57,174 nt of DNA from Actinomycetota bacterium (GCA_035765775.1 DASTWV010000041.1:1-57174); one strand, 5' to 3'. Counted from the stretch's first letter, positions 20,870 to 40,598 are shown. Notes: a model not told the origin generated them from the sequence alone. Made by a program: numbers and translations.

Positions 20870-20899
20870 ATAGTATGATCAAAGTATGAGCAATGCCAA
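20870..20899. promoter_or_regulatory. overlapping divergent near-leaderless promoters
   Basis: On the plus strand TATGAT (20874-20879) ends six bases before the antitoxin ATG at 20886. On the minus strand TTGGCA (20894-20899), an 18-base spacer and TACTAT (20870-20875) end seven bases before the GTG of DUF427. The two -10 boxes overlap, so the two promoters probably exclude each other. Any antitoxin binding here would affect both genes. Confidence 0.6.
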
Positions 20900-21173
20900 G
20901 AAGCGGGTGACCTTGACTTTGGACGCCGCCCTCGTCGAGGTGGGTAACCGGGCGGTGGCGACCGGCACAGCCCGTTCGCTGAGCGCATGGGTCAATGACG
21001 CGCTTACATCCAAGGTGGCCCACGATCGGCGCCTCAGCGCGTTGGACGCCGTCCTCGCCGACTACGAATCGGAGCATGGCGCGATCACGGAGGAGGAGAT
21101 GGAAGCCCAGGCGCGCAGCGACCGCGGATCGGCGATCCGCGTCGCTTCCAAGGATCGCCCGGCTTCGGCATGA
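20886..21173 (+). CDS. antitoxin, ribbon-helix-helix-like (VapB type)
   Basis: A 95-residue protein with an N-terminal ribbon-helix-helix pattern (KKRVTLTLDAALVEVGNRAVATGTARSLSAWVNDAL in outline) that should bind its own promoter as a dimer. The C-terminal half (ADYESEHGAITEEEMEAQ) is acidic and is the likely toxin-binding tail. Its stop overlaps the toxin start (ATGA), the usual arrangement of type II toxin-antitoxin operons. The message is probably leaderless. Confidence 0.82.
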   Translation: MSNAKKRVTLTLDAALVEVGNRAVATGTARSLSAWVNDALTSKVAHDRRLSALDAVLADYESEHGAITEEEMEAQARSDRGSAIRVASKDRPASA

Positions 21174-21547
21174 ATCTGGTGCTCGACGCCGGAGCACTGG
21201 TTGCCCTTGAGCGGAACGAACGACCCATGTGGCGGCGTTTGTGGGAGGCCCGGCAGCGCGGGGACGGGTTGGCAACGCACGGGGGCATTGTTGGCCAGGT
21301 ATGGCGGGGAGGTCAGCGCCCATCCCGCTTGGCTGCGCTGCTTCTTACGCTCGAGGTTCACCCCCTCGACGCGACTCTGGGACGGTCGGCCGGCGAACTT
21401 CTTCGGGCCACGGGTCTGGCGGACGTGATCGATGCTGCGCTGGTCGCCCTGTGCGCGGATGGCGATTGGATCGTTACCTCGGATGCCGATGACCTCGCGC
21501 CCCTGGTGCGGGCCGCTGGGCGTGACATCGTGCTCGTGCGACCGTGA
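21170..21547 (+). CDS. PIN-domain toxin (VapC family)
   Basis: A 125-residue PIN-domain ribonuclease. Acidic active-site residues are seen at Asp6 (LVLDAGAL), Glu14, Asp85/Asp88 ([10 protein letters not shown]) and Asp105-Asp108 ([11 protein letters not shown]). Such toxins cleave tRNA or rRNA and are silenced by the antitoxin encoded immediately upstream. Length is normal for the family. The pair is isolated from other mobile genes. Confidence 0.86.
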
Positions 21548-23635: not shown

Positions 23636-24313
23636 ATGGTGCAGCAGGAGCCGCTGAAGGTCCTGGTGGTCGATGACGACTACCTCGTGCGCGAGGGCGC
23701 CCGTAGCGTGCTTTCGTCGGTCCCCGGCGTCGAGGTGGTGGGCACCGCCGCCGACCCGGCCGAGCTGGCGGAGAAGATCGCCGCCACCCACCCCCAGGTG
23801 GTGGTCCTCGACATCCGGATGCCCCCCACCTACCGCATGGAGGGCATCGAGGCGGCCCACCAGATGCGCTTGGCGCACGCCTCGCTCGGCGTGGTCATCC
23901 TGTCTCAGCACGCCGACCCCGAGTACGCCCTGGAGTTCCTCCGGGACGGCTCCGCCGGGCGGGCCTACCTGCTGAAGGAGCGGCTCGGCAATCCCGCGCA
24001 GCTGGTCGAGGCCATCCGGGAGGTGGCGGCCGGCGGCTCGGTGCTGGACCCGAAGGTGGTCGACGGGCTCCTCGAGGCGCAGCGCCGCCGGGCGCAGTCC
24101 CGCCTGCAGGGCCTGACCGAGCGGGAGCACGAGGTGCTCGGCCTCATGGCCTCCGGCCGCAACAACGCCGCCATCGCCCGGGATCTGGTGCTGTCGGAAC
24201 GGGCGGTCGAGAAGCACATCAACGCGATCTTCCGCAAGCTCGGGCTGAGCGAGCAGCTCGACGTCAACCAGCGGGTGGCGGCGGTGCTGTTCTTCCTGCA
24301 GCGCTCGGGCTGA
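23636..24313 (+). CDS. NarL/FixJ-family response regulator (LuxR-type HTH)
   Basis: A 225-residue two-component regulator. The receiver domain has the acidic pocket VVDDDY, the phospho-acceptor Asp59 in VVLDIRMPP, the Ser of VVILSQH and the Lys of YLLKER. The insertion after the phospho-acceptor loop (PPTYRMEG) is typical of a large actinobacterial subgroup. The C-terminal LuxR-type helix-turn-helix (LTEREHEVLGLM ... ERAVEKHINAIFRKL) starts at about residue 155. The HisKA_3-type kinase-STAND fusion at 25055-29242 is the obvious partner candidate, as NarL regulators are phosphorylated by this kinase class. It converges with the cupredoxin gene. Confidence 0.92.
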   Translation: MVQQEPLKVLVVDDDYLVREGARSVLSSVPGVEVVGTAADPAELAEKIAATHPQVVVLDIRMPPTYRMEGIEAAHQMRLAHASLGVVILSQHADPEYALEFLRDGSAGRAYLLKERLGNPAQLVEAIREVAAGGSVLDPKVVDGLLEAQRRRAQSRLQGLTEREHEVLGLMASGRNNAAIARDLVLSERAVEKHINAIFRKLGLSEQLDVNQRVAAVLFFLQRSG

Positions 24314-24329: not shown

Positions 24330-24905
24330 TTACTTCACCGTCACCACTTGGTACATCCCCGCGGCGTAGTGCCCGGGAAGGTTGCAGACGAAGAGGTAGG
24401 TGCCCGGGCTGGTCAGATCCACCGTCCGGGTCTGGGTGGTGCCCGGGTCGAGGTTGTCCCCGTCGCTGACCTTCTGGATGCCTGCACCTTCCTCGTCGAT
24501 GCCGCCGTCCGCCTTCGGGTAGGCGCCCGGGGCGAGGTCGCTGCGGAACACCAGGAGTTCGTGCTGGATCTTGCCCGCGTTGGTGATGGTCAGGGTCACC
24601 TGTCCCGGAGCGATGGTCGTGGCCGCGGCCTTGACGGTGAACTCGGTGAGGTCCACGGTGACCGGGCCGGTCGCCGGTGCTGCCCCCGGGGCGGCCACTG
24701 CGCCAGCCGGGGCGCCCGGCGGCGCGGAAGGCGCACCGTCCCGCCCCACGGCAACGAAGAGCACGGAAAGCCCCACGCACCCGGCGATGATGCCGGCGAG
24801 GGCCAGCACAGCCGTCCTCCTGCCGCCGGGGGGGCGGGTGGTGTCGCTGGGGTCTTCTGCCGGGATCTGCGGGTCCTGCGCCTGCTCCTGGATCACGGTG
24901 CTCAC
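24330..24905 (-). CDS. membrane-anchored cupredoxin (plastocyanin/azurin-like)
   Basis: A 191-residue protein: a short cytoplasmic N-terminus, one transmembrane segment at about residues 29-50, an Ala/Pro/Gly linker, then a type 1 copper domain (about residues 85-191). Copper ligands are visible as His in KIQHELLVF and as Cys, His and Met in FVCNLPGHYAAGM. It should be a one-electron carrier or copper-binding protein facing outward. The GTG start follows GGGAGG by six bases. It lies between the kinase fusion (same strand, 149 bases upstream) and the response regulator (convergent), so it may be controlled by, or act as input for, that system; neither is shown by the sequence. Confidence 0.85.
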   Translation of the reverse strand: MSTVIQEQAQDPQIPAEDPSDTTRPPGGRRTAVLALAGIIAGCVGLSVLFVAVGRDGAPSAPPGAPAGAVAAPGAAPATGPVTVDLTEFTVKAAATTIAPGQVTLTITNAGKIQHELLVFRSDLAPGAYPKADGGIDEEGAGIQKVSDGDNLDPGTTQTRTVDLTSPGTYLFVCNLPGHYAAGMYQVVTVK

Positions 24906-25015
24906 GGTCGGCCTCCCTCGGTTGGCTTCTACCGTGATTCTCGGCGGGGGGCCCCGGCTGGCCATGAGCCTATTGCCCCGCGTTCTGGAGGCCATCCGGC
25001 ACCGCCGCACCGGGC

Positions 25016-25054: not shown

Positions 25055-28000
25055 CTACCCGCCGGACGCCAGCGGGGTCACGCCCGATGCGGCTTCAGGA
25101 GCGCCGTTGGGAGCCACGTCGGGGGCCATCCCGGGCTCCTCCTCGGCCGCCTCCTCGAGGTTCAGGATCTGCACCCCAGCCACCCGGGCCAGGGACTCGG
25201 CCCGCCGGGTCAGGTCCGCCACCACCGCGTCGGTCCGGGCCATGCCCAGCTCCCCGGTGATCCGCCCGGCTTCCTTCAGCAGCGCCATCGCGGCCACGAC
25301 GTCGCCCGGCCCGTTGCGCGAGGTGAGCATCGCCGCGTGGTGGGCCAGGGTCATCGCCGCCATCGGCCGGTCCCCCAGGGCCACGTTGCGCTTCAGGCCG
25401 AGCTCGAAGAGGCGCTGGGCCTCATCGAAGCGGTGCAGTGTCTCGGCGAGCATGCCCAGGAAGGTCGCCGCCGACCCGAGGCAGAACGCCCCGGCGTGCA
25501 CCACGATGCACCGGTCCTCGTAGGGGCTCAGGAGGTCGAAGAGGGTTGCGGCCCGGGTCGAATCCCGCAGGAAGGAGCACACCAGGCCGCACAGCGCCAC
25601 CGAGCCCAGCCAGTTGCCGTCCCGGGGCAGGTCTGCGAAGTCGTGCGTGGCCAGGTTCTCGAAGTGCTCCCGGGCGTCGATGATCCGCCCCATCTCGGCG
25701 TAGATCACCGCCAACCCGGTCCGCCAGCCGGGGAGCCACGGGTAGCTGTTGTTGAGCTCCCGGGCGGCCACCTCCATCTCGTCCAGGCGGCCCACCACCC
25801 AGTGGTGGAAGAACAGCTCGGCCCCGAAGCGGATCATCGCCGCCTGTCCGGGCCCCTGCCGGTTGGTCTGCAGCGCCTCCCGCATGTGGGTCTCGCCCTC
25901 GGCGAAGCGGCCCTCCATCAGTGCCACCATCGCCTGGAAACACAGCGCCTGCCAGCGGTAGAGCGGTTGGCGGAGCTCCTCGGCGAGGGTGATCCACTCG
26001 CCGAGTGCGGCGTCCAGGGCCTCCCGGTCGCCCAGTTCCAGCAGGGTGAGCAGCCGGAAGTGCCTTCCCCGCACCGCCATCTCCGGGTCGCCGATCTCCT
26101 CGGCCAGCCGGACGATTTTGCCGGCATCGTCCAGCCGCTCGTCGAGCCGGTCCGGGCCGAGCATCGACCGGAACCGGCTGTACAGGGCGATGAGCTCCGT
26201 GGCCGGGTCCCCCAGCTCCTGCGCCAACTCGACGGCCTGTTGCGCCAGGCTGGCTCGCCGGTCCACCTGGTCGGTGTAGTAGAGCTCGACCGCCAGCCGG
26301 GCGAGCACCCGCACCCGGTATCGGGCGGCAGTGACCTCGGGCTTCTCGGCGGCCGCCTCGGGGCTGTGGCGCCCCCGCCCGGCCGGGCGCGGCGGCCACT
26401 GCTCGATCGCCGTGAGGGCCTCCTCGAGCCGGCCGACCAGCACGTCGTCGGCGCCCTCGGCGAATTCGAAGCTGCCCAGGCCCTCGCCGTACCCGACCGC
26501 TGCCCGGGCCAGCCGGTTGGGGTCGTGCAGGCGCCGCGCCATGGTGGCGGCCTGGGTGAAGCTCTTGCGGGCCGATGGGGTATCGCCCGCCCGCCACTGG
26601 GTCTCGCCGAGGGCCAGCAGCAGGTCGCACTGCATCGGCTCCGATCCCTTGGCCCCCCGCTCCTCGCCCAGCGCCCGCAAGGCCCGCTCGTAGTGCCCGG
26701 CCGCCTCCTCGAAGGCGAGCAGCTTCGCTGCCCGGGCGCCGGCCCAGGCCGAGTAGTAGATCGCCTTGGCCCGGCTCCGCCCCCGGCCTGCAGCCTGGTA
26801 CTGCACCGCCAGCTCGGCGGGGCGGGCGTTGGGGTCGCCGGTGTAGATCCCCTCCAGCACCTGGCCGATGCGCCGGTGTAGGCGGCGCCGCTGATTGACC
26901 GGGATCTGGCCGTAGATGGTCTCCCGCATCAGGGCGTGGTTGAACCGGAAGCTCCGGCCCCGGGGCGAGGCGGTGGGCAGCTCGACCAGGACCCGGGCGG
27001 CCGACGCCTCCTCGACCGCGCTCACCAGGCGGTGCGGGGTCAGGTCCGAGGCGCGCTGCAGCACGCCGATGTCGAACTCCCGGCCGATGGCCGAGGCGAC
27101 GGAGAGGACCTCGTTGCACTGGGGCGACAGGTAGTCGAGGCGGCGCTCGATGGCGTCGCGCACCGAGATCGGGATGTCGATCTCCCACGAGGCCCGCTCC
27201 GCGGCATCCTGCAGGTGGCCCTCGGAAGCCAGCAGCCGCACGACCTCCCGGACGAACAACGGGTTGCCTTCGGTCCGGCTGAAGACCGCGGCCACCAGGT
27301 CGGGCGAGGGCCGGCGCCCGGTGGCCACCTCCATGAAGCGGGCGACCTCCCGCTCGTCCAGGCCCCGCAGCGTCAATGTGGTCGAGAGCTGGCCGATCTC
27401 CAGGCCGGTCAGCGTGCTGCTCAGGGGGTGCCCGGTCGGCCAGGTGGCATCCCGGTGGGTGCCCACCAGCAGGACCCGGGCGGTGCGCAAGGTGTCCGCC
27501 AGGAACTCGAGCAGGCGCAGCGACGGCTTGTCCGCCGACTGGAGGTCGTCCACCACGATCAGCATCGGGCGGGCTTCGGAGGCCCTGCGCAGGAACGAGG
27601 AGATCGAATCGAAGAGCCGGAAGCGGGCCTGGCGGGGGTCGGCCAGCTCGGCGTCATCCGCCGGGGGGAGCGGGGGCTCGACCGCCGTTTGCAGCCGGGT
27701 GGCCAGCTCGGCGTCCATCTGCGCGATGTCGGTGGCGCCCGGTCCCATCTCCTCGAGCAGCTCCTCGACCCGCCGCCGGCGGACGTAGGTCCGGATCACC
27801 TGGATCCAGGGCGAGTAAGCCGGGGTCCCCTCGGGGTCGAAGCACCGGCCTACCAGCACCACGGCGCCCCGGGAGGCGGCGTAGGTCGCCAGTTCGTTGG
27901 CCGTGCGGGTCTTGCCGATGCCCGGCTCGCCCGCCAGCAGCACGAGGCTGCCGTGCCCGCCGAGGGCGGATTCGAACGCCGCCCGCAGGGCGTCGATCTC

Positions 28001-29242
28001 CTCCTCCCGGCCGACGTACGTCCCCGCCCCCGAGGACTCGACCAGGAGCTGGTCCACCGACGGCGTCGCCTCTCCCGGCGGCCGGGCCGGCATCCGGAGG
28101 GGGTTGAGGGGCAGGAGGGCCCGGATCGCCGTGCCCGCCGATCCCGAGGTCACGAACATGCGGCCGCCCAGCGAGCGGATGCGGTCGTCGAGGAAGGTCA
28201 GCCCTCCGGCGGTCGCGCCGGCCAGGTCGGCCTCCCGTTGGAACCCCCGCCCGTTGTCGGCGACGGCGAGGGCCAGGCAGTCGTTCTCGATCGCCAGGTC
28301 GATGGTGGCCTCCGTGGCCCCCGAGTGCTTCAGCACGTTGGCGATCGCCTCGGACACGATGAAGTAGGCGCTGGATTCGATCTCCCGGCGCAGCCGGGGC
28401 AGCGGGTCGGGGTTGCTGGAGAGGTGGGTCGTGATCGGCAGCCGGCCCGCCTGCGAGCGCACCGCGGCGGTGAGCCCGGCGTCGCGCAGGATCGAGGGGT
28501 AGAGGTCCTGGCTGACCTCGCGCACCCGCTCGATCACCCGGTCGAGCTCGGCCCCCAGCTCGGCGAACACGTCCTTGGCCTGCTGGCCCCCGCTGCGCAC
28601 CCGCTCGGGGGCCATGCCGATGCCCATCCGCAGCACGACCAGCTGCTGCTGCAGGCCGTCGTGGAGGTCCCGGGCCAGCCGGCGGCGCTCCTCGTCCCGG
28701 ACCGTGGTCAGCCGGAGCGAGCTTTCCCGCAGGGCGTCGGCCTGGCTCTGGATGAGGTCGAGGTGCGAGCGCAGCTCCAGCTTCATGGTCTCGAGCGCCC
28801 CGGCCAGCTGGCCGATCTCGTCGTTGGAGCGCTGGGCGAAGTGGGCCTCCAGGTTGCCCGCCGCCACCTGCCGGGCGGTGCGGGCCAGGATGCCAAGCGG
28901 CCGGGTCACCGCCCGCAGGGTCAGCAGCGAGAGGACGACGGCGGCGAGCAACAGCACGAAGACGATGAGGACGATGTCCAGCACCGACCCGGTCTTCTCC
29001 GGTGCCCCGCTGGCGGCGAAGATCGCGGTCACCAGGCTCCCGATGGCGAGTGCGGCGGCCAGTGACCACACGATCTTGATGAGCACCGTCGCCCGCATGC
29101 GGCCCGGGAGGGCCCGCAGGGTGGCGGCGGTCGAGTGGTCCACCCGCAGCCCGCTGGGGGAGCGCGCCGCCCGCCCGGCCCGCGCCGCCCGCCCGCCCCG
29201 GCCGAACCGGCTCCCGTCGCGGGGGTGCACGCCGGCGCTCAC
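25055..29242 (-). CDS. histidine kinase-STAND ATPase-TPR fusion protein
   Basis: A 1395-residue protein with an unusual domain chain. Residues 1-50 are basic. Two transmembrane helices (about 52-77 and 87-112) are joined by only about 10 residues, so there is no outside sensor domain. A HAMP-like region follows (110-165), then a HisKA_3 dimerisation motif with phospho-acceptor His194 in ARDLHDGLQQQL, and a HATPase domain (N-box SEAIANVLKHSG near 302, G-box ADNGRGF near 330). From about 407 (YVGREEEIDALRAAF) a STAND/AAA_16-type ATPase begins, with Walker A GEPGIGKT (438-445), Walker B LIVVDDLQ (561-568) and VGTHRD. Residues from about 850 to 1360 are helical and TPR-like. There is no HTH domain at the end, unlike MalT/LAL regulators. 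The GTG start is uncertain; a Met at residue 49 is possible. The NarL regulator at 23636 is the likely partner. Confidence 0.88.
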   Translation of the reverse strand: MSAGVHPRDGSRFGRGGRAARAGRAARSPSGLRVDHSTAATLRALPGRMRATVLIKIVWSLAAALAIGSLVTAIFAASGAPEKTGSVLDIVLIVFVLLLAAVVLSLLTLRAVTRPLGILARTARQVAAGNLEAHFAQRSNDEIGQLAGALETMKLELRSHLDLIQSQADALRESSLRLTTVRDEERRRLARDLHDGLQQQLVVLRMGIGMAPERVRSGGQQAKDVFAELGAELDRVIERVREVSQDLYPSILRDAGLTAAVRSQAGRLPITTHLSSNPDPLPRLRREIESSAYFIVSEAIANVLKHSGATEATIDLAIENDCLALAVADNGRGFQREADLAGATAGGLTFLDDRIRSLGGRMFVTSGSAGTAIRALLPLNPLRMPARPPGEATPSVDQLLVESSGAGTYVGREEEIDALRAAFESALGGHGSLVLLAGEPGIGKTRTANELATYAASRGAVVLVGRCFDPEGTPAYSPWIQVIRTYVRRRRVEELLEEMGPGATDIAQMDAELATRLQTAVEPPLPPADDAELADPRQARFRLFDSISSFLRRASEARPMLIVVDDLQSADKPSLRLLEFLADTLRTARVLLVGTHRDATWPTGHPLSSTLTGLEIGQLSTTLTLRGLDEREVARFMEVATGRRPSPDLVAAVFSRTEGNPLFVREVVRLLASEGHLQDAAERASWEIDIPISVRDAIERRLDYLSPQCNEVLSVASAIGREFDIGVLQRASDLTPHRLVSAVEEASAARVLVELPTASPRGRSFRFNHALMRETIYGQIPVNQRRRLHRRIGQVLEGIYTGDPNARPAELAVQYQAAGRGRSRAKAIYYSAWAGARAAKLLAFEEAAGHYERALRALGEERGAKGSEPMQCDLLLALGETQWRAGDTPSARKSFTQAATMARRLHDPNRLARAAVGYGEGLGSFEFAEGADDVLVGRLEEALTAIEQWPPRPAGRGRHSPEAAAEKPEVTAARYRVRVLARLAVELYYTDQVDRRASLAQQAVELAQELGDPATELIALYSRFRSMLGPDRLDERLDDAGKIVRLAEEIGDPEMAVRGRHFRLLTLLELGDREALDAALGEWITLAEELRQPLYRWQALCFQAMVALMEGRFAEGETHMREALQTNRQGPGQAAMIRFGAELFFHHWVVGRLDEMEVAARELNNSYPWLPGWRTGLAVIYAEMGRIIDAREHFENLATHDFADLPRDGNWLGSVALCGLVCSFLRDSTRAATLFDLLSPYEDRCIVVHAGAFCLGSAATFLGMLAETLHRFDEAQRLFELGLKRNVALGDRPMAAMTLAHHAAMLTSRNGPGDVVAAMALLKEAGRITGELGMARTDAVVADLTRRAESLARVAGVQILNLEEAAEEEPGMAPDVAPNGAPEAASGVTPLASGG

Positions 29243-36687: not shown

Positions 36688-37136
36688 TCTTGGAAGCGGC
36701 TCCGGATCCCTAGGCGGTGCCCGAAACGGGCTGCGGTGTGAGGTTGGCCCTCGGGCCTCGGGAGCCCGGGCTCCTCACTGTACCCGGCACCCGCCCGGCC
36801 GGGCTCGGGGTCTCACAGGAATATGCAGAAGTTGACAGGGTGCGCACGAGAAGGGCCTGAACCGGGCGTGCATCACCTGCCCCACATCCGTCGGGGCACT
36901 GTCGATTTGCATCCCGATCCGGCCCTGGCGTAGCCTGTCGCGCCGGAATCGAGACGTTGCCACGTTTGCAGTCCGAGGACCGTTTTTCAGGCCCTGGGGC
37001 GCCACCTTTTGGAGGGCTTCTGTTGCACGGCACCCCCCGGCCCAGTAAACCCGATACCCGCCGGAAACATCGCCAAACATCTCACCGCACAAGGACCACA
37101 TCCCTCTGGGTAATCCGGCCCCGTGCCCGCCGCCGG
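36688..37136. other. intergenic region between mfd and the large GH16 gene
   Basis: A 449-base divergent region. It holds stem-loops at 36737-36778 (GTGAGG/CCTCAC around CGGGC/GCCCG) and at 36879-36898 (TGCCCC/GGGGCA), and a candidate plus-strand promoter at 36907-36936. The stretch from about 36943 to 37136 would be a long 5' leader of the GH16 gene; it is open in the same frame but has no coding character. I looked for known riboswitch cores and found none. Confidence 0.5.
36907..36936 (+). promoter_or_regulatory. candidate promoter of the large GH16 gene
   Basis: TTGCAT (36907-36912) and TAGCCT (36931-36936) are 18 bases apart. Transcription from here would give a leader of roughly 190 bases. 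Matches to consensus are moderate. Confidence 0.35.
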
Positions 37137-40100
37137 GTGCCCCGGGGCCGCCCCTTGCTGTTCCGCTCCTGGTCCCCGACCGGCCGGATCGGGGCGGTCG
37201 CCCTGGTGGTGTCCCTGATGCTGACCACCGCCGGCATCGAGGCGGGGCTGCAGAGCCTGGCCGCGGTCCCTACCCCGGTGGTGAACGGGGCGGTCATCGA
37301 ATCGGACACCTTCAGCGGGCGCACCACCGCCGGAGGGTGGGGCACCGCCTCGAACGGGGACCCCTGGACCGTGCAGACCGGTAGCGCCAGCGTGCTCTCC
37401 GTATCCGGCGGCGAAGGCCATGTGAACGGATCGCTCGCCATGGCGATGCTGGTGGCAACTCTGGGGACCAAGACCGCCACCAACAGCGAGGTGCTGGCCC
37501 GCTACACCTCGGGGCACTACGCCAACGACGACGGCCATGTGCTCCTGGCGTTCTCCGACGCATCGACGTTCTACGTTGCCGGCCTGGACTCGCCCAACGC
37601 TTCACCGGTGGTCAACATCTGGCGGACTTCCCGAGGCACCGAGACCCAGGTGGCCAGCGTGCCCTTCCCGGCTGCCACCGGGACGTCCTACTGGGAGCGC
37701 GCCCGGGTGACCAACACCGGGGCCAGCGCGCAGATCTCGGTCCGGGTCTGGGCCGACGGCACCGTCGAGCCCACCGGCTGGACCCTGCAGTGGACGGACT
37801 CCTCGCCGCTGCCAGCAGGCCGGGTGGGCGTCGAGGCGTGGGACGACGGCCTCGGCTGGACCATGGACAACTTCGCCGCGGGGAACCTCGACGCCGCCCC
37901 CACGCCGAGCCCCTCGCCGTCCCCGTCCCCGAGCCCGTCGCCGTCCCCCAGCCCGTCGCCGTCCCCGAGCCCGTCGCCGTCCCCCAGCCCGTCGCCGTCC
38001 CCCAGCCCGTCGCCGTCCGGCAACGTGGCGGGTGGCACGCTCATCGAGCAGGACACCTTCGCCGGGCGCACCACCACCGGGGGCTGGGGGACCGCCTCCA
38101 ATGGCGATCCCTGGAGCGTCCAGGCGGGCAGTGCCTCCGTCCTCTCGGTCTCCGGCGGCCTCGGCATCGTCAAGGGTTCCGGCTCCATGGCCCTCCTGCG
38201 GGCCACGCTCGGCTCGCAGATTGCCGGCGACACCGAGGTGCTCAGCCAGTACACCTCCAAGGACTACGCCAATGACGCCGGCCACGTGATGCTGCGCTTC
38301 TCGAATACCTCGTCGTTCTACGTCGCCGGCCTCGACTCCCCCAACGGCTCCCCGGTCGTCAATGTGTTCAAGGCCTCGGGTGGGGGGGAGAGCCAGGTGG
38401 CCAGCGTGCCGTACCCGGCCACCAACGGGACGTCGTACTGGGAGCGGGCCCGGGTGCAGAACTCCGGGGCCAACGCGGTGGTCTCGGTGCGGGTATGGCC
38501 GGTGGGCGCCACCGAGCCCTCAGCCTGGACCCTGACCTGGACCGACTCCTCGCCGCTGCCCGCCGGCCGGGTCGGGATCGAGGCCTGGGACAGCGGTCTG
38601 GGCTGGACCATGGACAACTTCTCGGCCGGCAGCCTGTCGGGGCCGGGCCCCAGCCCGAGCCCCAGCCCTTCGCCGAGCCCCAGCCCCTCGCCGAGCCCGA
38701 GCCCCTCCCCGTCGCCCACGCCAAAGGCTTCCCCGTCGCCCAACCCGTCGCCCACAGCGCCGCCCTCGGCTCCCGCGGTCACCGGGCTGAGCCCGAACTC
38801 GGGGAGTACCGCCGGCGGCACCTCGGTGGCGATCACCGGCACCAACCTCTCCGGGGCCACGACGGTCACCTTCGGCGGCGCTTCGGTCGGCTTCACCGTC
38901 GACTCCTCGACGAGGATCACCGCCACCTCCCCCGCCGCCTCGGCCGGGACGGTGGACGTCCGGGTTACGGGCGGCGGCGGGCAGAGCGCCGTCACCGCCG
39001 CCGACCGGTTCACGTTCGTGACCCCCACGGGGCCGCCGGCGGTGACCTCGGTGAGCCCGCCCTCCGGCGCCTCGGCGGGCAGCACCTCGGTGGTCATCAC
39101 CGGCACCAACTTCACCGGCGCCAGCTCGGTCCAGTTCGGCGGGGTCGCGGCCAGCTACACGGTCAACTCGGCCACGCAGATCACGGCCACCGCCCCCGCC
39201 GGCTCGGGCACCGTGGACGTGATGGTGACCACGCCCGGCGGCGGCACCAGCGCCCGGGTGGTGGGCGACGAGTACAGCTACACCTTCGCCCGGAACGGCT
39301 ACTCGGTGTCGCTCGTGGCGTCCACCGTCTCCCCGGCGCTGGGTGGCATCGTCAGCCTCAACGCCACCGCCAACCAGGACATCACCACCTCCGGGTTCGG
39401 GATCTCGATCTTCGATGCCAGCACCGGCGTCGAGCTCACCCACGTCGTGGTGGGCTCCACCGCCGTGGCGCTGGTCAGCCAGGCCTCGGCCCTCACCCAG
39501 CGCTACGTGGCCGAGGTCTCCAATGCCGGGGGCACCAACGCCCAGGCGGCGTCTGCACCGGTGATCGTCACCTGGTCGGGCGGGGCACCGCCGCCCCCAC
39601 CCGCGGTGACCGGCGTCTCGCCCGGCTCCGGGCCGGCAGGTACCGCGGTGACCATCAGCGGGACGAACTTCACCGGCGCTACGGCCGTGGCCTTCGGCAG
39701 CGTGTCCGCCGCCTTCACCGTCACCTCGCCCACCCAGATCTCGGCCACCTCCCCGGCGGGGAGCGGGACCGTGGACGTCCGGGTGACCACCCCCGCCGGC
39801 ACCAGCCCCTCGGGTGCCCTCGACGTCTACGCCTACACCACAAGCGGTGGCGGCGGGTCGCCCTCCGGCCTGGCCATGCCCACGGGCGACATCCCGGGCT
39901 GGCACATGGTGTTCTCGGACGACTTCACCGGCAGCTCGCTGAACAGCAACGCCTGGGGGACGTACTCGGGCCAGCCCGGCGGCGACTCGGGTGCCTGGTG
40001 GGACCCCTCCCACGTGGTGGTGAAGAACGGGATGCTCGTGCTGGAGAACTTCGTCGACCCGTCCCATGACGGCGGCAAGTCGGGCATCTACGTCTCCGGT

Positions 40101-40598
40101 GGCGTCTCCAGCGCCCCGGCCCTGCAGCAGCTGTACGGCAAGTACCTCATGCGTTTCCGGGCGGACGGGGGCCTCGGCATCGCCCAGATCGGGCTCCTGT
40201 GGCCGGCCAACAACTCATGGCCCCCGGAGATCGACTTCGACGAGGACGCCGGCGAGGACGGCTTGGCCCGGGCGCACTCGACGGCCACCTACCACTGCGG
40301 CTCGAACGGCAACGACTCCTGCCAGGTTGCCCACACCCTCAGCAATGTCGACCTCACCCAGTGGCACACCATAGGCGTGGAGTGGACCTCCTCCGGGCTC
40401 GTTTACACCTTCGACGGCCAGAACTGGGCGACGGTCCCCGCCAGTACGCAGCGGCCGCCCTCCATCCCCATGGAGTTCGACATCCAGACCCAGGCGGGCG
40501 ACTGCAGCCAGTTCCTGCCGTGCCCGACCTCGGCCAAGACGCCGCCGGAAGTCGACATGGACGTCGACTGGGTGGTCGCCTACGCCCCCGGCCCGTAG
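37137..40598 (+). CDS. secreted multimodular GH16 glycoside hydrolase
   Basis: A protein of about 1153 residues. A basic start and hydrophobic stretch (IGAVALVVSLMLTTAG) form a signal peptide. Two copies of a module of about 200 residues follow (about 52-251 and 301-500), each with DTF(S/A)GRTT.GGWGTASNGDPW, SYWERARV and GLGWTMDNF(A/S)AG, probably concanavalin-like sandwich domains. Each copy ends in a Pro-Ser repeat linker. Then come three IPT/TIG-like domains (about 545-632, 634-715 and 822-901) with another Ig-like domain between the second and third, and finally the GH16 catalytic domain (about 913-1153). The active-site ExDxxE is PPEIDFDED (Glu1031, Asp1033, Glu1036). It should degrade beta-glucans outside the cell. 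No ribosome binding site marks the start; GTG 37137 is chosen because it precedes the signal peptide, but TTG 37155 is possible. Confidence 0.85.
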   Translation: MPRGRPLLFRSWSPTGRIGAVALVVSLMLTTAGIEAGLQSLAAVPTPVVNGAVIESDTFSGRTTAGGWGTASNGDPWTVQTGSASVLSVSGGEGHVNGSLAMAMLVATLGTKTATNSEVLARYTSGHYANDDGHVLLAFSDASTFYVAGLDSPNASPVVNIWRTSRGTETQVASVPFPAATGTSYWERARVTNTGASAQISVRVWADGTVEPTGWTLQWTDSSPLPAGRVGVEAWDDGLGWTMDNFAAGNLDAAPTPSPSPSPSPSPSPSPSPSPSPSPSPSPSPSPSPSPSPSGNVAGGTLIEQDTFAGRTTTGGWGTASNGDPWSVQAGSASVLSVSGGLGIVKGSGSMALLRATLGSQIAGDTEVLSQYTSKDYANDAGHVMLRFSNTSSFYVAGLDSPNGSPVVNVFKASGGGESQVASVPYPATNGTSYWERARVQNSGANAVVSVRVWPVGATEPSAWTLTWTDSSPLPAGRVGIEAWDSGLGWTMDNFSAGSLSGPGPSPSPSPSPSPSPSPSPSPSPSPTPKASPSPNPSPTAPPSAPAVTGLSPNSGSTAGGTSVAITGTNLSGATTVTFGGASVGFTVDSSTRITATSPAASAGTVDVRVTGGGGQSAVTAADRFTFVTPTGPPAVTSVSPPSGASAGSTSVVITGTNFTGASSVQFGGVAASYTVNSATQITATAPAGSGTVDVMVTTPGGGTSARVVGDEYSYTFARNGYSVSLVASTVSPALGGIVSLNATANQDITTSGFGISIFDASTGVELTHVVVGSTAVALVSQASALTQRYVAEVSNAGGTNAQAASAPVIVTWSGGAPPPPPAVTGVSPGSGPAGTAVTISGTNFTGATAVAFGSVSAAFTVTSPTQISATSPAGSGTVDVRVTTPAGTSPSGALDVYAYTTSGGGGSPSGLAMPTGDIPGWHMVFSDDFTGSSLNSNAWGTYSGQPGGDSGAWWDPSHVVVKNGMLVLENFVDPSHDGGKSGIYVSGGVSSAPALQQLYGKYLMRFRADGGLGIAQIGLLWPANNSWPPEIDFDEDAGEDGLARAHSTATYHCGSNGNDSCQVAHTLSNVDLTQWHTIGVEWTSSGLVYTFDGQNWATVPASTQRPPSIPMEFDIQTQAGDCSQFLPCPTSAKTPPEVDMDVDWVVAYAPGP
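37291..38636 (+). repeat. tandem duplication of a module of about 200 residues
   Basis: The segments 37291-37890 and 38038-38636 encode two clearly homologous modules in the same order, with long identical stretches such as GGWGTASNGDPW, FYVAGLDSPN and TDSSPLPAGRVG. The duplication includes the linker that follows each copy. Confidence 0.85.
37904..38018 (+). repeat. Pro-Ser microsatellite linker
   Basis: An array built from units like CCGTCGCCGTCCCCCAGC encodes alternating Pro-Ser. A shorter related array lies at 38647-38712. Copy number is likely to vary between strains and to be hard to assemble. Confidence 0.8.

Follow-up and report, generated by a model that had tools for sequence, protein, structure and literature searches.

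A membrane histidine kinase joined to a STAND ATPase and TPR-like solenoid in one family of Actinomycetota, and its NarL-type partner regulator

Closest described systems

CuaDSR of Ruminiclostridium cellulolyticum is a three-component system of solute-binding protein, histidine kinase and response regulator (SBP-HK-RR) in which the binding protein binds the kinase (PMC10384115). We compared this and other described systems with a gene of a 57,174-nucleotide stretch of DNA from an Actinomycetota bacterium (GCA_035765775.1 DASTWV010000041.1:1-57174; the window, meaning this whole stretch), which encodes a membrane histidine kinase, a STAND ATPase and a TPR-like solenoid in one frame and is paired with a NarL-type response regulator. 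In gene content (binding protein, kinase with an outside domain, regulator) CuaDSR is like the stand-alone relatives of the window kinase, and the window kinase and regulator share a phylogenetic group with these SBP-HK-RR-like relatives. Unlike SBP-HK-RR systems, however, the window has neither a binding protein nor an outside domain, and carries a C-terminal STAND-TPR part instead. We consider it fairly probable, from sequence comparison, that the gene encodes a NarX/LiaS-class kinase whose outer sensing apparatus was exchanged for an intracellular STAND-TPR one.

The presence of a histidine kinase and a STAND ATPase in one chain is not new in general. HstK and its cbSTKIII family are cyanobacterial Ser/Thr-kinase/histidine-kinase proteins (PMC2176072), and the HstK type, seen here in Hassallia as Pkinase-AAA_16-GAF-HisKA, has a histidine kinase and AAA_16 in one chain, as the window protein does. 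These cyanobacterial examples differ in domain order and kinase class, with Pkinase at the N terminus, AAA_16 ahead of GAF, and a kinase at the C terminus (of the classical HisKA type in those where one was found), and neither HAMP nor HisKA_3 was present among the HstK-type proteins scanned, whereas the window protein has a membrane HisKA_3 kinase at its N terminus and lacks Pkinase and GAF. No description of a histidine kinase-STAND fusion in the present domain order was found in the literature searched.

STAND regulators of the LAL/MalT type share with the window protein an AAA_16-type STAND core, the GNP motif and a C-terminal TPR-like solenoid but, unlike them, the window chain has no LuxR-type DNA-binding domain, its output side being a histidine kinase and a separate LuxR-type regulator. 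The closest sister of the window STAND module is the Pkinase-AAA_16-TPR-Guanylate_cyc (TOMM_kin_cyc-like) type, a placement with weak support (85/66); against the TOMM_kin_cyc model the AAA_16 part scores 176 bits, below the cut-off of 705.75, and the window protein, unlike TOMM_kin_cyc-like proteins, has no Pkinase or cyclase domain. On the kinase side, the intramembrane-sensing kinases LiaS and VraS share two transmembrane helices, a very short loop, a HisKA_3 core and a NarL-type partner with the window kinase, which by hydropathy shows the topology of this group (two transmembrane helices, loop <~25 residues); kinases of the group receive their signal within the membrane or from a membrane partner. 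Unlike LiaS/VraS, it is followed by ~1000 residues of STAND-TPR, and its relatives carry a large outside domain.

A single frame from kinase to TPR-like solenoid

The fused gene and its parts are as follows.

25055..29242, minus: whole fused gene, membrane histidine kinase, STAND ATPase and TPR-like solenoid (1395 amino acids, one frame)
29009..29098, minus: transmembrane helix 1, residues ~49-78 (hydropathy)
28907..28987, minus: transmembrane helix 2, residues ~86-112 (hydropathy)
28769..28921, minus: HAMP, residues 108-158 (Pfam PF00672, E=3.7e-13)
28493..28690, minus: HisKA_3 dimerisation/phospho-acceptor domain, residues 185-250 (PF07730, E=8.6e-13)
28103..28372, minus: HATPase_c, residues 291-380 (PF02518, E=1e-6, above cut-off)
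28019..28102, minus: kinase-STAND linker, residues 381-408, open with the frame kept in both fusion-bearing genomes
27464..28018, minus: AAA_16/STAND nucleoside triphosphatase (NTPase) core, residues 409-593 (PF13191, E=3.8e-31)
27908..27931, minus: Walker A, GEPGIGKT, residues 438-445 (K444 in 54/54 homologues covering the site)
27545..27556, minus: Walker B, VVDD, residues 563-566 (D566 in 55/55 rows)
26723..27463, minus: remainder of the STAND module, residues 594-840, with R597, GNP at 659-661 and H769 (alignment conservation)
25172..26722, minus: TPR-like helical solenoid, residues ~841-1357 (TPR_12/TPR_2 above Pfam cut-off from ~844 on)

Pfam and hydropathy bear out the preliminary description of this frame as a two-helix membrane kinase with HAMP, HisKA_3 (His194) and HATPase domains followed by a STAND/AAA_16 ATPase and a TPR-like region. 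Its further statements also held: Walker A and B are intact, in the motifs themselves and in an alignment of 55 STAND modules; almost nothing of the chain lies outside the cell, with ~10 residues between helix 1 and helix 2 by hydropathy; and the Pfam scan of the fused protein found no DNA-binding or helix-turn-helix domain, including a C-terminal LuxR-type one. The same scan found no Pkinase, GAF or cyclase domain. The putative start is a GTG codon, and conservation against the orthologue discussed below begins at about residue 47. The phospho-acceptor His194 is intact within the H-box LHDG of HisKA_3, the N and G boxes of HATPase_c (NVLKH, DNGRG and LGG) were all found, and the kinase core resembles the VraS and DesK structures and the LiaS model. 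Across the 55 STAND modules R597, G659 and H769 are, like K444 and D566, invariant or nearly so, a pattern that would fit an active NTPase. As to the winged-helix domain that follows the helical bundle in STAND NTPases, what was seen is a conserved F-x-H motif (767-769), ending in H769, the structure model being too weak to help. A PDB sequence search with the STAND-TPR part brought up a single match, which was weak and fell on a designed protein.

The fused frame reflects a real gene and not a sequencing artefact. In the same family, a second genus is represented by a genome (G001) with an uninterrupted frame that matches residues 36-1357 at 65% identity and shows the same Pfam domains. Identity to this orthologue is 67-68% in the kinase, 60% in the STAND module and 67-69% in the TPR-like region, with the transmembrane segment (44%) below every folded domain. 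Third-position GC content is 0.95-1.0 across all domains and the linker at residues 381-408, and non-synonymous divergence (dN) is lower than synonymous divergence (dS) in every part, with dN/dS of ~0.3-0.45 from HAMP through TPR. The preliminary description had raised the possibility of two genes joined by a sequence error near residue 390-410, and outside the window's family the kinase and STAND parts were indeed found solely as separate genes in the genomes examined. This explanation is rejected because the second genome, an independent assembly, carries the identical fused arrangement; the third-position GC content, which is continuous and stays at 0.96, the purifying selection and the linker that aligns in both genomes also stand against it, and we regard it as extremely improbable. 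Loss of the Walker motifs among homologues, the other possibility raised there, was likewise not what the alignment gave, as the K444 and D566 counts above indicate.

Outside the window's family, a membrane HisKA_3 kinase followed by STAND-TPR without a Ser/Thr kinase was not found in the searches made. Neither the 22 remaining genomes of the window's class nor the 394 others within a 396-genome sample of the phylum (two candidates scored per genome) had the fusion, while more complete searches in two further classes (66 and 27 genomes) gave kinases or STAND proteins separately and no fusion. In a tblastn search of plasmids no record covered 80% of the query, and the 15 best matches listed hit the STAND-TPR part only. 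A first scan of contigs for fused relatives gave none, and a HAMP-pattern scan gave other HAMP proteins or kinases, none with STAND.

Partner regulator, stand-alone triads and the proposed intracellular input

The regulator lies beyond the 3' end of the fused gene and is convergent with it.

23636..24313, plus: NarL-type response regulator, Response_reg and GerE (Pfam)

It has the usual acidic pocket, with D13, D14, D59 and K114 all present, and its orthologue in the second genome shares 86% identity. There the kinase contig and the regulator contig have an exact 127-base end overlap that places the two genes tail-to-tail (evidence from assembly overlap and not from a spanning read). An orthologous regulator (50-68% identity) is tail-to-tail with 24 of 25 stand-alone kinases, the 25th contig ending inside the kinase. 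Trees of the kinase core and of the regulator agree, both placing the window and the second genome beside the same 11 stand-alone systems, and paralogous kinase/regulator pairs from the same genomes fall outside this group in both. Gene order and trees together make a good case for this regulator as the cognate partner of the fused kinase, as the preliminary description had it, and phosphotransfer between the two would be expected by analogy with two-component systems. In most of the stand-alone systems (L073, L099-L108, L225-L234) the frames of kinase and regulator run into each other tail-to-tail, sharing 144-213 bases and in many cases exactly 159, so that the C-terminal tail of the kinase is coded antisense to the end of the regulator.

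These stand-alone systems differ from the fused ones in their outer parts. A solute-binding-protein gene lies directly upstream of the kinase, abutting or overlapping its 5' end, in 25/25 systems (five typed as SBP_bac_8/SBP_bac_1 by Pfam, the remainder by similarity to those five), and one binding-protein sequence examined opens with a lipoprotein-like signal. Topology was examined in 11 stand-alone kinases, and in these an outside domain of ~235 residues lies between two transmembrane helices; the two fused kinases have almost nothing there. No solute-binding-protein gene was found within the window, and no binding-protein orthologue in its genome (best match 25% identity, E=4e-4) or, by whole-genome search of an incomplete assembly, in the second genome.

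The clade that contains the STAND-TPR module is well supported (100/99), and the partner in its members is LuxR, BTAD/SARP, a Ser/Thr kinase together with a cyclase, or some other C-terminal domain. With this variety of partners the module is a widely shuffled unit, normally found attached to an output domain, and the histidine kinase is one more partner. The window genome (G000, 3.6 Mb) has about ten further STAND-type places with differing attached domains. Large STAND frames occur in other genomes: one (L043:1624-11538, plus) is a frame of 3305 amino acids with three tandem STAND matches, two TPR matches and Pkinase- and cyclase-like parts, and others have 3564-4405 amino acids.

In the exchange proposed here, the older form would be a triad that combines a solute-binding lipoprotein, a kinase bearing a periplasmic domain and a convergent NarL-type regulator, and that persists in the 25 systems examined; the window's family would have lost both binding protein and periplasmic domain and had a STAND-TPR part joined to the kinase C terminus. 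The direction from triad to fusion is suggested by parsimony, since triads are found at close and at distant positions in the kinase tree alike. The TPR solenoid may bind a cytosolic ligand or protein, which would let the STAND core swap ADP for ATP and then change shape or oligomerise; this movement may alter the kinase dimer and thereby set the phosphorylation of the regulator. The STAND part would then be the input side of the kinase, working through nucleotide exchange, and the signal reported to the regulator is probably internal to the cell. The view that the STAND-TPR part is an intracellular input, which the preliminary description thought probable, is strongly though indirectly supported: the solute-binding protein and the periplasmic domain on which the stand-alone relatives rely are both absent from the fused kinases. 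Ligand-gated, ATP-driven switching of this part and its control of phosphotransfer are what we infer from the known behaviour of STAND and two-component proteins. A more specific form, in which ligand binding to the TPR arm leads STAND rings to assemble with ATP, gather the kinase dimers into clusters and so make phosphotransfer all-or-none, an inflammasome-like front end replacing the outer solute sensor, is put forward tentatively.

STAND oligomerisation is established for MalT and Apaf-1. It also allows another role for the module: without binding any ligand itself, it would hold kinase dimers together as a tether or oligomerisation scaffold, and signalling would be constitutive or follow the level of expression. 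Such a scaffold would draw on a property of STAND proteins (summarised in PMC7159879), and the sequence reveals no ligand; we nevertheless judge it distinctly improbable, given that the Walker A/B and GNP motifs are fully retained and that the TPR region, usually the ligand-binding one, is as conserved between genera (69%) as the kinase (67%).

Alternatively, the kinase could sense at the membrane through its transmembrane helices and HAMP, as in LiaS/VraS, and drive the STAND-TPR part as a second output or scaffold. The near-absent loop between the two retained helices, the retained HAMP and the likeness of the kinase core to VraS, DesK and LiaS agree with this, and STAND proteins in other systems are often effectors (PMC7159879). 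Against it, a conserved dedicated regulator beside the kinase means that an output exists already, the STAND relatives joined to LuxR, BTAD, cyclase or Pkinase outputs suggest that the module is the receiver side, and the transmembrane segment is poorly conserved between the orthologues. We therefore regard membrane sensing with a STAND output as unlikely.

Several observations weigh against the exchange of an outer sensor for a STAND-TPR one. HAMP and two transmembrane helices are retained in the fused kinase, so that some membrane input may persist. The fusion was found in two genomes only, both of the window's family, and one is split over two contigs. Loss of the binding protein in the second genome was read from an incomplete assembly and not from the upstream neighbour of the kinase. 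The nearest triads belong to another class, those of the same order being more distant in the kinase tree, and the ancestor may thus have come by transfer. Finally, a single-sequence structure prediction of residues 401-1395 had a mean predicted local distance difference test score of 44.5 and was discarded as too poor.

If the exchange did take place, it shows that a histidine kinase can be driven by a STAND module attached at its C terminus, and the locus appears to be a natural rewiring experiment in which one kinase/regulator pair is served by an extracytoplasmic binding-protein sensor or, in one family, by an intracellular STAND switch. Comparison of triad and fusion would then make testable how different outputs read the STAND conformational change.

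Neighbouring genes and other features of the window

One gene lies between the regulator and the fused kinase.

24330..25010, minus: membrane-anchored cupredoxin-like gene (PF00127, E=1.7e-7)

Because the regulator and kinase genes are convergent with this gene between them, they do not form one operon. The cupredoxin-like gene was considered as a component of the system and rejected, the second genome having no close counterpart, with a weak match elsewhere in the genome, and it is probably not part of the signalling system. In the second genome its place between regulator and kinase is taken by a short lipoprotein-like frame (L072 ~95-473, minus). Upstream of the fused gene are a DivIC-like gene and an enolase-like gene, the latter read from the translation by eye.

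Elsewhere in the window, an overlapping two-gene unit (20886-21173 and 21170-21547, plus) resembles by eye a VapBC-type toxin-antitoxin pair, its second product being PIN-domain-like, with no Pfam match at 1e-3. The product of a gene at 36957-40598 (plus) is large and contains TIG repeats as well as a glycosyl hydrolase 16 domain.

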